IMG/VR virus record: IMGVR_UViG_3300025323_000025 | Span: 1 to 26,324 of that record | Length of the DNA: 26,324 nucleotides | Source: a virus | Direction: 5' to 3' (one strand) | Part shown: piece after piece, positions 2,770 to 25,797 of the stretch | Position numbering within the stretch: position 1 is the first letter of the stretch | Layout of the letters: each line of letters starts with the position of its first letter | Position numbers and translations under genes: made by a program | Notes under the pieces: model-generated | What the model was told of the DNA's origin: nothing | Database searches by the model: none | What the model saw: only the letters and a program-made list of their open reading frames with translations

Positions 2770-3179
2770 AGCAATTCTCATTCACCATAGAAGGTAACCA
2801 GGATGATCGACTTGGAAATGCTATACCAAAGATCAGAAAAACATACCGACAGCAATGGACACCCGAAGCCCAGAGATATACAGCATGGAAGGGATACGTA
2901 CAAGAAGCATTTCTTCGGTCACTCGTAGATATAGATTTTAAAGTTCACATAAGATTTCAGCGTCTTGTAAAGAAACCAATAAAGCTTGCTGAGGGTGAAA
3001 AAGCTGTTATGGATATCCGCATTTTCTGGAAAGACGAAACGCACGGCGATCCTGAAAATATATTCGGCTCAATTGCAGATGCACTTTTCTACAACGACAA
3101 ATACCTTGATGGTTCATTCAAAAGTGAACTCGCAAAAGATGGTAAGGGTCGAGTGGAGATAATTATCAACTTAAATTAA
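2766..3179 (+). CDS. rusA: RusA-type Holliday junction resolvase
   Basis: The product has 137 residues, close to the usual 120-140. The central motif HGDPENIFGSIADAL (93-107) followed by FYNDKYLDG (108-116) corresponds to the RusA pattern 'D.DN..K...DAL......DD.QV'. D95, E97, D105 and D111 are the likely Mg-binding acids. RusA dimers cut four-way DNA junctions and are used by phages to resolve recombination or replication intermediates before packaging. The start overlaps the stop of the replication gene (ATGA at 2766). Weakly conserved residues outside the motif are normal for this family. Confidence 0.85.
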   Translation: MKQFSFTIEGNQDDRLGNAIPKIRKTYRQQWTPEAQRYTAWKGYVQEAFLRSLVDIDFKVHIRFQRLVKKPIKLAEGEKAVMDIRIFWKDETHGDPENIFGSIADALFYNDKYLDGSFKSELAKDGKGRVEIIINLN

Positions 3180-3563
3180 ATGACAATGACATCAGAACAA
3201 ACAAAAGTAATCAAAGATAAATATATTCAGGAACTCAATGAACAGATTTGGCGCAAGAAAATGAACATCGCCTTTGACCTCAGTAAAATCCTAGATATCG
3301 AAAAACTCCGTGACGACAGATTCAAGGAACTTGATGGTCTCAACGCCGATCTAAAACTCATTGATCCTTCTGACACTACAAAGCAGAGTCGAGTAAAGAG
3401 AAAGGATTTAGAAAAGAAAATAGCTCTAGCCGAAGACTTCACCTTGAAGTGTGATGAGACGATCGTTGTTATTAGAGACAATACAAATAAGGAAAATGAG
3501 AAGGTCGATCAATTACTCGCAAGAATTAAATTTGCCGAAGATTATGGAATCGACAAAAATTAA
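3180..3563 (+). CDS. Coiled-coil phage protein, unknown function
   Basis: The product has 127 residues and begins directly after the RusA stop (TAA then ATG). A second ATG two codons later is possible. It is highly charged, rich in Lys, Asp and Glu with regular Leu/Ile spacing, and is predicted as almost entirely alpha-helical with coiled-coil segments (about 5-35, 45-60 and 65-120). There are no membrane segments; one Cys is at about 89. It overlaps the next gene by 20 bases, so it is translated as part of the replication/methylation operon. I recognise no family; an adaptor or structural role is a guess. Confidence 0.7.
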   Translation: MTMTSEQTKVIKDKYIQELNEQIWRKKMNIAFDLSKILDIEKLRDDRFKELDGLNADLKLIDPSDTTKQSRVKRKDLEKKIALAEDFTLKCDETIVVIRDNTNKENEKVDQLLARIKFAEDYGIDKN

Positions 3564-4827
3564 AATCACTGAATTAAGACGTGCTGAGTATAACCCACGT
3601 ATCATGCCTGAAAATGAAATGTCAGCACTCAAGACAAGTATCAAGACCTTCGGCTTCGTCGAATCGGTCGTTGTGAATACTCACACCTGCGACCAGTGCG
3701 GTGACCGAAAATGGGTACTAGTAGGGGGTCATCAAAGAACTACCGCCGTAGAGGGGCTTGTAGCCCAAGGTGAAGCCATAAAAGGCATTGAAACCAAGGA
3801 CGGAGTAACTCTCATTCCAGCTAATCTAGTGGATTTACATCTTCCTGAAGAAAAGCTCCTCAATCTTGCCCTAAATAAAATCAAAGGAAAATGGGATGAG
3901 AAAAAACTCTTCGAAATTATTGTTGAGCTTAAGGAATCGCCATCCATTCCTGCTTCAGGTTTCAGGGATGATGAAATCAGTCGAATACTCGATCAGACTC
4001 TTGAGGATGAGGAAGAAGACGAGGGCGAAGGTGACGGGTCCGACAAGGAGCCTCGTTCAAAACTCGGCGAAATATATGAACTCGGGTCCCACAGATTAAT
4101 TTGTGGCGACTCAACAGATCCAGAAACCTATAAGAGACTTCTTGGTGATGAAAGGGCTGATATGGTTTTCACTGATCCTCCCTACAATGTGAATTACAAA
4201 AGCCGAGGAAATAAACTCAAAGAGGAAGGCAATGAATCTATCAAGAATGACAACATGGACGATAATCAATTCAGAGCATTCATTGACTCCGCCTTCTACG
4301 CAACATTCATTCACGTCAAAGAAGGTGCTTCGTTCTACATCTGTTCTGGTTGGAGCTCGTATCCGCAATTTCTTGAGAGTATGAATAAGAACGGCTTCCA
4401 GCATTCGGGTGTGATTATCTGGGTGAAGAACGTGCCGAGCATGGGATGGAATGATTACCGCTACAAACATGAGTGGATTGCTCGTGCGAAGAAACCAGAT
4501 CCTAAGACTGCACAGGGAATTATCTATGGTTGGAAAAATGGTACTCACAAATTCTATGGTGACAATGAGTTTGATGTATGGGAGATGCCGAGGAAAGCAG
4601 TTGCACACTACCTCCATCCGACCGAGAAACCTGATTGGCTTGCGATGAGAGCACTTCGCAATTCCACAAAGCGAAACGATATTGTTCTCGATCCCTTCGG
4701 AGGGTCCGGCAGCACCATGGCTGCGGCGGAAAAGGTCGGCCGACGGGCATACATGATCGAGCTTGATCCCAAGTTCTGCGATGTTATACGTAATCGATGG
4801 GAGAGAATTAATAAAATAAAACAATGA
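3544..4827 (+). CDS. ParB-like nuclease domain fused to N4/N6 DNA methyltransferase
   Basis: The product has 427 residues from ATG 3544; upstream in-frame Mets lie inside the previous gene. Residues 1-150 form a ParB/Srx-type domain: 'LRRAEYNPRIM', a CDQC CxxC insertion (49-52) and GGHQR (61-65). An acidic linker (154-168) follows. Residues 175-427 form a beta-class amino-methyltransferase with DPPY (211-214), HPTEKP (358-363) and FGGSGST (385-391, SAM-binding). The enzyme would methylate adenine-N6 or cytosine-N4 in DNA using SAM, probably to protect phage DNA from host restriction or to mark packaging sites. ParB-methylase fusions are common in phages. The stop overlaps the C5 methylase start (ATGA). 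The target site cannot be read from the sequence. Confidence 0.9.
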   Translation: MESTKIKITELRRAEYNPRIMPENEMSALKTSIKTFGFVESVVVNTHTCDQCGDRKWVLVGGHQRTTAVEGLVAQGEAIKGIETKDGVTLIPANLVDLHLPEEKLLNLALNKIKGKWDEKKLFEIIVELKESPSIPASGFRDDEISRILDQTLEDEEEDEGEGDGSDKEPRSKLGEIYELGSHRLICGDSTDPETYKRLLGDERADMVFTDPPYNVNYKSRGNKLKEEGNESIKNDNMDDNQFRAFIDSAFYATFIHVKEGASFYICSGWSSYPQFLESMNKNGFQHSGVIIWVKNVPSMGWNDYRYKHEWIARAKKPDPKTAQGIIYGWKNGTHKFYGDNEFDVWEMPRKAVAHYLHPTEKPDWLAMRALRNSTKRNDIVLDPFGGSGSTMAAAEKVGRRAYMIELDPKFCDVIRNRWERINKIKQ

Positions 4828-5951
4828 GATACTTCAGCCTCTTCTCGGGGATCGGAGGCTTCGAACTCGGCATACACAACGCATATGTGGAAACAGCTAA
4901 CAGAAAGAAGAACAGAGGAGGCAAAGCGACTCCGAAGACTCGGGGTGGTAAAGGATACAAGAAGTCTGAAAAAGCTGGTCCCGAGAGAGGACAATCTTGC
5001 AAACACCATCACTGCGACGGCTTACGACAAGAATCGATTGCTTGCGTGGGTTACTCCGAGATCGACAAGCACGCAATCGGAATTTATGAAAAATATTTCA
5101 AGCACACAAATTATGGAGACATCAGAAAAATCAAATCAAGAAATCTGCCAGATTTCGACTTACTCATTGGAGGTTTTCCTTGCCAATCTTTCTCTATTGC
5201 CGGCAAGAGAAAGGGCTTTGAAGACACTCGAGGGACACTGTTCTTTGAGATTACTCGCATTGTCGCTGCCAAAAGACCACGGCTTCTACTCCTTGAGAAT
5301 GTTAAGGGGCTTCTCTCTCACGAGAAGGGGCGTACCTTTGGTATTATCCTCCGCACACTGGATGGTCTTGGGTATGACCTCCAATGGCAGGTGCTTAACA
5401 GCAAGAATTTTGGAGTACCGCAGAACAGAGAGCGAGTCTTCATTGTCGGACATCTTAGAGGAACGCCCAGACCGGAAGTATTTCCTCTCGCCCAAAACGC
5501 AAGCGAGGATATTGTCCTACCAACCATCACGACACGTGTTACCGCAGACTCGAACGGAACTTATGTTAGTAAAAGATCGTCACATAAAGACCTGAAATAT
5601 ATCGGAGCTGTCATGAGCGAGAAGAACAAGAAATGGCTCGATGATGGAAAACAGCTCAGCAGAAACTTTCCACAAGGGAGTCGAATATATGATGCTAAAG
5701 GCATAGCTACTACCCTCGCAAGCCAAGCGGGAGGGCTTGGAGCGAAGACTGGACTATATGCAGTCAAAGGCTTACGGAAGATCCGTCGCCTTACCCCTAT
5801 GGAATGTGAACGTTTGCAGGGCTTTCCTGACGAATGGACGGAAGGTGTAAGCGACACTCAAAGGTATAAGTGCCTAGGGAATGCGGTGACCGTAAACGTG
5901 GTTCAGGCGATCATAAAAAAGCTAGTATTTGCAAGGGTTAAATCAAAATAG
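4824..5951 (+). CDS. dcm: DNA (cytosine-5-)-methyltransferase with anomalous insert
   Basis: The product has 375 residues. Motif I is FSLFSGIGGFELG (4-16), motif II VGYSEIDKHA (75-84), motif IV GGFPCQSFS with catalytic C120, motif VI ENV (158-160) and motif VIII 'NFGVPQNRERVFIVG'. The C-terminal 'LTPMECERLQGFP' and 'LGNAVTVNVV' are motifs IX/X. It transfers a methyl group from SAM to C5 of cytosine. Between motifs I and II there is a 51-residue Lys/Gly/Arg-rich stretch (22-72). In the +1 frame the same DNA reads as a more protein-like segment, suggesting two compensating frameshifts (see findings). The gene overlaps the preceding methylase by ATGA. Core catalytic motifs are intact, so activity is plausible. 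Confidence 0.92.
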   Translation: MRYFSLFSGIGGFELGIHNAYVETANRKKNRGGKATPKTRGGKGYKKSEKAGPERGQSCKHHHCDGLRQESIACVGYSEIDKHAIGIYEKYFKHTNYGDIRKIKSRNLPDFDLLIGGFPCQSFSIAGKRKGFEDTRGTLFFEITRIVAAKRPRLLLLENVKGLLSHEKGRTFGIILRTLDGLGYDLQWQVLNSKNFGVPQNRERVFIVGHLRGTPRPEVFPLAQNASEDIVLPTITTRVTADSNGTYVSKRSSHKDLKYIGAVMSEKNKKWLDDGKQLSRNFPQGSRIYDAKGIATTLASQAGGLGAKTGLYAVKGLRKIRRLTPMECERLQGFPDEWTEGVSDTQRYKCLGNAVTVNVVQAIIKKLVFARVKSK

Positions 5952-25038: not shown

Positions 25039-25797
25039 ATGCACGAATCAGAAACAAAGGTACCGGAGCCTCACGTACCAGTCCAAACAAATAGCCTATC
25101 AATCCCTGTAGCGATCATTGTGGCAGGCGTTCTCATTGCCGGAGCGCTATTCTTCGGATTAAAAAGTAATGATGGTTCTAAAGTTGCTAATGCTCCACAA
25201 CCACAAGCTGTTGCGCAACCTACTGGAGATCTTGAGCAAATGAAGCCAGTATCAAAGAATGATCACATTCGAGGTAATCCGGATGCTCCAGTAAAAATTG
25301 TTGAATACTCTGATACAGAATGTCCGTTTTGCAAGAGATTCCATTTGACTATGAAGGAGGTGATGGATACCTATGGTAAAGATGGAAAGGTGGCATGGGT
25401 ATACAGGCACTTTCCGCTTGATCAGCTTCACTCAAAAGCTCGTAAAGAAGCAGTTGCTTTGGAGTGTGCAAATGAGCAGGGAGGCAATGACAAATTCTGG
25501 TCATATGCTGATCGCCTCTACGAGATAACTCCAGCAAACAATGGCCTTGATCTGGCTGAGCTACCAAAGATTGCAGAGTATGTGGGGTTGGATGTATCAA
25601 AATTCAATACCTGTCTAGCAAGTACCAAATATGATGCGCATATCGAGGAAGAAGTGCAGAACGCAGCTGCTACCGGAGGCAACGGCACTCCATGGAGTAT
25701 TGTTGTGGGTCCAAAAGGTAAAAAATATCCACTATCTGGCGCACAACCACTTGCAGCGATTAAACAACTCATTGATCTTGCCTCTCAAGGAAAATAA
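25039..25797 (+). CDS. Membrane-anchored DsbA-like thiol oxidoreductase
   Basis: The product has 252 residues. A single uncleaved-looking membrane anchor lies at 20-41 (SIPVAIIVAGVLIAGALFFG), then a flexible linker (42-75) and a thioredoxin-fold domain with the active site CPFC (95-98) in VKIVEYSDTECPFCKRFH. A helical insertion (100-210) and the cis-Pro loop TPW (217-219) follow, as in DsbA_2/thioredoxin_4 proteins. It would make or shuffle disulfide bonds on the outer face of the membrane. Two more Cys residues (C143, C192) may form a structural disulfide. The next gene, three bases away, encodes a membrane protein with CxxC, which may be its redox partner. Confidence 0.9.
   Translation: MHESETKVPEPHVPVQTNSLSIPVAIIVAGVLIAGALFFGLKSNDGSKVANAPQPQAVAQPTGDLEQMKPVSKNDHIRGNPDAPVKIVEYSDTECPFCKRFHLTMKEVMDTYGKDGKVAWVYRHFPLDQLHSKARKEAVALECANEQGGNDKFWSYADRLYEITPANNGLDLAELPKIAEYVGLDVSKFNTCLASTKYDAHIEEEVQNAAATGGNGTPWSIVVGPKGKKYPLSGAQPLAAIKQLIDLASQGK

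Follow-up and report, generated by a model that had tools for sequence, protein, structure and literature searches.

A nested +1 reading frame in a phage C5-cytosine methylase gene, probably encoding a second subunit with a recognition cassette

The window, which is the whole 26,324-base virus record analysed here, carried replication, terminase and portal genes and therefore represents a phage. Two relatives of the window (L117 and L118) were located in Nomurabacteria and Paceibacterota MAGs, and for this reason a Patescibacteria host is hinted at. A C5-cytosine DNA methylase gene, designated alpha, was found in frame 0, and a second open reading frame, designated beta, was nested in it in the +1 frame; the positions of both and of their parts are listed in Table 1. 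The ORF directly upstream of alpha (3451–4827) encoded a fusion of a ParB-like protein and a DNA methyltransferase (phrog_498, E 1e-118), and its TGA overlapped the ATG of alpha (ATGA), which suggests translational coupling of the two. The ORF at 25039–25797 encoded a CPFC-motif protein resembling a secreted, DsbA-like thiol oxidoreductase, judged on sequence only and with no PHROG match; this is an unusual gene for the end of a phage contig.

Table 1. Positions in the window of the alpha gene, the overlapping beta ORF and their parts.
Feature	Position	Strand	Basis
Alpha, C5-cytosine DNA methylase, frame 0, 375 aa	4824..5951	+	PF00145, E 3.2e-88
Alpha motif I (FSGIGGF)	4842..4862	+	read directly
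Alpha catalytic motif IV (GGFPCQS)	5169..5189	+	translation
Alpha motif VIII (QNRERVF)	5421..5441	+	translation; invariant or nearly so in alignment A4
Alpha motif IX (RRLTPMECERLQGFP), frame 0	5784..5828	+	translation
Beta, overlapping +1 ORF nested in alpha, 236 codons (236 aa)	4885..5595	+	+1 stop avoidance; phrog_16143
TRD-type cassette, beta N-terminus in +1; in frame 0 the variable, poorly conserved motif I–II loop of alpha	4885..5043	+	phmmer 1e-10; +1-wobble substitutions; pLDDT 73–82
Putative beta linker in +1 and alpha motifs II–VIII in frame 0, dual-coded	5044..5439	+	stop-free +1; synonymous constraint mostly 1.1–1.6; pLDDT 32–40
Beta C-terminal segment SLSDILEERPDRKYFLSPK, canonical pre-TRD element; the same DNA in frame 0 reads VFIVGHLRGTPRPEVFPLA	5440..5496	+	pattern counts; constraint peak

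Alpha held motifs I–X and TRD cassettes in frame 0. The PF00145 match, motifs I, IV, VIII, IX and X in order and an M.HhaI-like fold identified it as a C5-cytosine methylase, the motifs being invariant or almost invariant in alignment A4. The best structural match of the AF2 model of alpha (62 sequences) was M.HhaI 1svu (Z 26.8, rmsd 3.5, 251 aligned); the catalytic part of the model was confident, and residues 225–315 of the TRD had pLDDT <50. Alignment A4 comprised 62 of the 65 sequences listed, with L059, L079 and L081 left out. Because motif IX and the TRD cassettes sit in frame 0, alpha might suffice alone.

An earlier note on this DNA had drawn attention to 4887–5041, between motifs I and II, as Lys/Gly/Arg-rich in frame 0 and reading MWKQLTERRTEEAKRLRRLG...KKLVPREDNLANTITATAYDKNRLLA in the +1 frame; the translations agreed with this, and both frames were open. 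The +1 signal at this place is real, but its proposed end at 5041 was wrong, as the +1 ORF is open to 5595. Beyond what that note had described, the +1 frame continued open for about 180 further codons after the loop and ended in a second methylase segment.

The product of the window beta matched phrog_16143 (E 1.3e-26), and all of the +1 products scanned matched this family (53/53). Pfam and NCBIfam searches with the 53 +1 products gave scattered weak matches only: the DNA cytosine methylase model was weakly matched by four of them (best 0.0018), and the other matches concerned single members. phrog_1008 was matched by 12 of the 53 (best 3e-6), and conservation of the overlapped alpha may have forced these matches. 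Proposed free-standing copies of beta were rejected, since the Lachnospiraceae match of phrog_1008 was another nested +1 ORF and the 'hypothetical protein' matches in Blautia and Agathobacter phages were, by their coordinates, the +1 frame of a second CDS. Two Heliusvirales phages (L112 and L113) had two adjacent methylase genes, the second being annotated as a hypothetical protein and itself matched by a +1 ORF.

Alignment A1 comprised 53 of the 56 beta products (L007, L034 and L044 left out), and alignment A3 comprised 52 (L002 left out as well). A PDB sequence search with A1 returned a single non-significant match (E 0.43). In the AF2 model of beta (52 sequences; pTM 0.21) only the ends were confident, with pLDDT 73–82 for residues 1–40 and 73–86 for residues of about 191–210; residues 52–184 had pLDDT 32–40. 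Variable alignments alone may account for the low confidence both in the alpha TRD and in the middle of beta.

Comparison of 54 distinct loops with a TRD library (93 in-frame regions) by phmmer (E<0.01) gave matches for 37/54 loops read in +1, 2/54 read in frame 0 and 0/54 read in +2. This is far beyond chance and confirmed the earlier suggestion that it is the +1 translation which makes sense and resembles the family; for 17 of the 54 +1 loops no match to the TRD library was obtained at this threshold. The +1 loop of the window matched the in-frame TRD of L091 (1e-10) and thus shows the homology to in-frame segments between motifs VIII and IX that defines a TRD cassette. The usual in-frame site of the insert named in the earlier note is within the TRD, immediately ahead of motif IX, and not between motifs I and II. 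In Alicyclobacillus phage MMB025 (L003) a loop-type peptide lay in frame just upstream of motif IX (50% over 75% of the query), and the same position was occupied by such a peptide in most of the loci L090–L107.

Cassette types differed among the loops of the relatives, and some of them recurred in other relatives as in-frame parts of the TRD; the loops of L084, L031 and L020, for example, matched the in-frame TRD of L012. Loop identity and core identity disagreed (L008–L009: core 88%, loop 69%; window–L008: core 71%, loop 81%). Because the histories of loop and core differ in this way, exchange of cassettes is suggested.

Three further observations concerned the loop. The +1 loops of L062 (3062–3805) and L016 (447–1181) appeared to contain two tandem TRD-like cassettes. 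L044 had a +1 stop at codon 48 and was the only one of the 56 loop-bearing genes with a stop inside the cassette; the remainder of its +1 frame was open. In L052 (IMGVR_UViG_3300031973_001073, match 3001–4076) it was frame 0 that contained the cassette text GGSGPLVSTKHSYTIETGQ, with the reading frame ending at 248 aa and no motif II or IX recognised; the loop here has an indel, natural or introduced by sequencing.

Selection on the +1 frame was examined in a family set of 76 genes, obtained from 83 (80 viral loci, the window, L002 and L004) by dropping five without N-terminus and two, L052 and L069, without a recognised motif II. In L063 the search pattern misplaced motif II, and its loop was understated at 30 residues instead of 53. 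A loop of at least 25 residues was present in 56 of the 76 genes, and all 56 were free of +1 stops in the 130 codons after motif II; this was also true of 13 of the 20 loop-less genes. The loop-less family genes retained the +1 ORF with a later start, and 36 of the 37 listed had no +1 stop between motifs IV and VIII, the remaining gene (L146) having one.

Stops were also counted by region in 52 loop-bearing genes, four of the 56 being left out because motif VIII or IX was not recognised, and expected numbers were taken from synonymous shuffles that keep codon usage. In these related sequences, which are not independent trials, 0 +1 stops were observed between motifs II and VIII versus 256 expected, and 6 versus 75 in the 30 codons after motif VIII; further downstream the counts were 266 observed versus 195 expected and 262 versus 183. 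The +2 stops in loop-bearing genes were as expected. Among 219 flanking genes, +1 stops showed no avoidance (4126 observed, 4078 expected), and none of these genes was free of +1 stops across its first 150 codons. A wider set of 123 unique methylase ORFs contained 74 loop-bearing genes with 0 +1 stops versus 190 expected, and 12 methylases with neither the loop nor a +1 KYFLS had 78 versus 83.

Substitutions were counted at frame-0 codon positions 1/2/3, position 1 being the wobble position of the +1 frame. Between the window and L008 the loop substitutions numbered 21/8/3 (identity 93% in +1, 60% in frame 0), and between L008 and L009 they numbered 33/12/6. The closest pairs, with cores about 94–96% identical, gave 9/4/2 (L005–L006), 12/2/2 (L020–L021) and 4/1/0 (L011–L118). 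Synonymous constraint, measured over 76 related sequences and 2,824 pairs as the ratio of observed to expected codon identity at positions with identical residues, was 1.1–1.8 at codons 71–210, reached its peak of 2.64 at codons 211–220 and was 2.28 at codons 221–230. At codons 281–360 it was 0.96–1.05, although motifs IX and X, just as conserved, lie there. Constraint on frame-0 synonymous sites was thus confined to the extent of the +1 ORF, and the peak coincided with the +1 SDILEE..KYFLS element.

In ordinary C5 methylases the SDILEE..KYFLS element is canonical and lies in frame, downstream of motif VIII. The +1 frame contained the pattern DILE..KY.LS in 72 of the 76 relatives; frame 0 contained it in no relative (0/76). 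Among 19 comparison ORFs the element was in frame 0 in nine, in neither frame in nine and in +1 in one, L125, which is a family member missorted by the filter. Taken as evidence from sequence comparison, these patterns show that both frames are protein-coding and under selection, and that the dual reading of the methylase gene is a conserved arrangement and not a sequencing error.

Analysis of possible beta starts in the 56 loop-bearing genes, which are related sequences, showed that 29 had only an ATG at codon 20.3, 20 had only a start at 14.3 (ATG or TTG), 6 had both and one had neither (L024, with GTG at 18.3); the exclusivity of the two starts is partly due to clade structure. At Tyr21, where the spelling TAT creates the +1 ATG, the ratio TAT:TAC was 33:2 versus 585:287 elsewhere, an excess that is smaller against Tyr codons before G beyond codon 260 (59:21). 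Codon 21 was CAT in three genes, and the +1 ATG was kept in L010 and L011 and not in L032.

The sequence GGAGG at 4854–4858, within alpha motif I, resembles a Shine-Dalgarno site; it lies 26 nt upstream of the beta ATG and therefore cannot serve the window beta. The starts at 14.3 were mostly preceded by this GGAGG, while the starts at 20.3 had no good Shine-Dalgarno site, and the mean Shine-Dalgarno duplex energy was -10.3 for 14.3-only starts, -2.8 for 20.3 starts (as in the window) and -1.2 for alpha starts. As a general Shine-Dalgarno site for beta, the GGAGG in motif I was rejected, being about equally common in loop-bearing (32/56) and loop-less (9/20) genes; it was commoner in 14.3-only genes (16/20) than in 20.3-only genes (13/29; p 0.019). 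The window beta may be initiated separately, at the ATG at 4885.

Comparison with known systems showed that orf13 and orf14 of Streptococcus phage MM1 1998 are annotated as the alpha and beta subunits of a C5 methyltransferase, the 'beta subunit' label being the annotation of the depositors. Like the window beta, MM1 orf14 is nested in the +1 frame of a C5 methylase gene and belongs to phrog_16143; the two shared 44% identity over 117 aa (BLASTP E 2e-24), and both end in SDILEE.VD.(K/R)YFLS. Unlike the window beta, the MM1 beta has 141 aa, starts past the loop position and carries no N-terminal TRD cassette. As an ORF inside a methylase gene with homology to MM1 orf14, the window +1 ORF falls in the MM1-type nested beta family (phrog_16143). 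P0094 also carries an annotation of the nested ORF.

The small subunit of M.EcoHK31I (YGGCCR) is nested in the +1 frame. M.AquI and M.EcoHK31I are each reported to be built of two polypeptides, and motif IX of M.EcoHK31I is carried by the small one (PMC3404938). The window pair resembles M.EcoHK31I in that two polypeptides would form one C5 methylase; the small subunit of M.EcoHK31I supplies motif IX, whereas in the window motif IX lies in alpha and the putative beta consists of the pre-TRD segment and a TRD cassette. Since motif IX is read in frame 0 of alpha and is absent from the +1 ORF, the window pair would be an MM1-type alpha/beta pair that works like M.EcoHK31I without belonging to its type. 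A locus resembling the M.EcoHK31I plan in nested +1 form was L281 (Lachnospiraceae oral taxon 107), with an alpha of 305 aa (1287–2204) and a nested +1 ORF of 181 aa (1474–2019; phrog_1008, E 1.1e-17); this ORF ends in the motif-IX-like RFNPEWVEWLMGFP plus a few residues, and frame 0 shows no motif IX.

M.AquI is, as proposed for the window pair, a C5 methylase with its variable region divided between two chains; it is not known to have a long dual-coded overlap, unlike the window pair. Its split is reported as motifs I–VIII with part of the variable region in one chain and the rest with motifs IX–X in the other (PMC3404938). The methylases SPR, H2 and M.phiBssHII share tandem or separated TRD cassettes with the window gene. 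Their TRDs are not known to lie outside the methylase reading frame, unlike the +1 cassette of the window. The Bacillus phage methylases SPR and H2 are described as multispecific with tandem TRD cassettes, and M.phiBssHII as having TRDs at separated places (PMC8936443). Nested methylase subunits are therefore already known, as annotations. Among the titles and displayed abstracts of the literature searched, no description of a nested TRD cassette was found, and to that extent the fusion of a cassette to beta through the motif I–II loop, the occurrence of cassette types across frames and the signs of dual coding throughout the family are apparently undescribed.

We favour, with a probability of roughly two in three, a dual-coded C5 methylase in which alpha is read in frame 0 and a +1 beta, starting at 4885, carries the cassette and the pre-TRD segment. 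Frame 0 would give alpha with catalytic motifs I–VIII, TRD cassettes and motifs IX and X. The +1 ORF from the ATG at 4885 would give beta, made up of the TRD-type cassette, a flexible stretch and SDILEE..KYFLS, which alpha lacks in its own frame. For alpha the cassette DNA would be a mere spacer loop. Beta would most likely bind alpha and complete or extend the DNA-recognition domain, in the manner of the small subunit of M.EcoHK31I, with the cassette as an exchangeable recognition module. The pair would thus be a two-polypeptide methylase like M.EcoHK31I with such a cassette added to beta. We infer that beta is expressed, assembles with alpha and affects sequence specificity. The further proposal that two halves of one recognition domain are held in overlapping frames, and that swappable cassettes move between the alpha TRD and the beta loop, is tentative, and we put it at somewhat less than an even chance.

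An unlikely alternative is that TRD cassettes are stored silently in the loop, out of frame, and copied from there by recombination into the alpha TRD, and that beta is dispensable. The same cassette types in +1 loops and in the frame-0 TRDs of other phages (L084 and L031 versus L012) and the disagreement between loop and core in L008 and L009 would be expected of such a store, but it requires neither an open +1 frame through motif VIII nor conservation of SDILEE..KYFLS in +1. Slightly lower we would place a pair of programmed ribosomal frameshifts, the first to +1 near 4885 and the second back near 5041, by which the cassette would enter the alpha chain. Selection on the cassette in +1 at its present place and a +1 ATG without a Shine-Dalgarno site are consistent with frameshifting; however, about 130 further stop-free +1 codons and the +1 conservation of the segment after motif VIII would be left unexplained, start codons in +1 have been preserved, relatives without the loop retain the remainder of the +1 ORF, and in phage MM1 the annotation is a separate CDS. 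Because of the open +1 frame and the start codons, a programmed frameshift gene appears less likely, and no pair of frameshifts is needed, since the +1 reading is the start of the overlapping ORF at 4885–5595. Frameshifting and a silent store might apply singly or jointly.

That the +1 frame is open as a side effect of codon usage, with the cassette a relic left by an old insertion, is very improbable: codon usage alone does yield fewer +1 than +2 stops, but the shuffles that keep it still expected 256 stops where none was seen, no such depletion occurred in flanking genes or ordinary C5 methylases, and a relic would not retain the +1-wobble substitution pattern in the closest pairs. Two compensating indels or assembly errors are scarcely credible, for although two one-base shifts would locally bring the cassette into the alpha frame, the 56 loop-bearing relatives, on many independent contigs, all carry the loop in one phase and keep frame 0 open through it, and close homologues keeping the annotated-frame insert, which the earlier note had itself named as counter-evidence, were found (L005, 89%; L006, 84%). 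Of that note's overall reading, recoding was rightly named as a possibility, and the indel and assembly options did not hold.

The products of overlapping genes are as a rule unrelated; in this gene the two frames appear to specify parts of one enzyme, and the constraint on each frame can be measured and is located in different places. The alpha/beta arrangement occurs widely, in sequences of phages, plasmids and MAGs, and mostly goes unannotated. If the more tentative proposal of a recognition domain split between frames, with mobile cassettes, is true, phages could change or widen methylation specificity by swapping a short piece of DNA that alpha tolerates as a spacer, and beta would be a combinatorial, dual-coded specificity subunit. 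The arrangement may also give phages a means of diversifying their protection against restriction. One 60-kb contig (IMGVR_UViG_3300025323_000513) carried two different alpha/beta genes, L007 and L008, which were 93% and 63% like the window gene.
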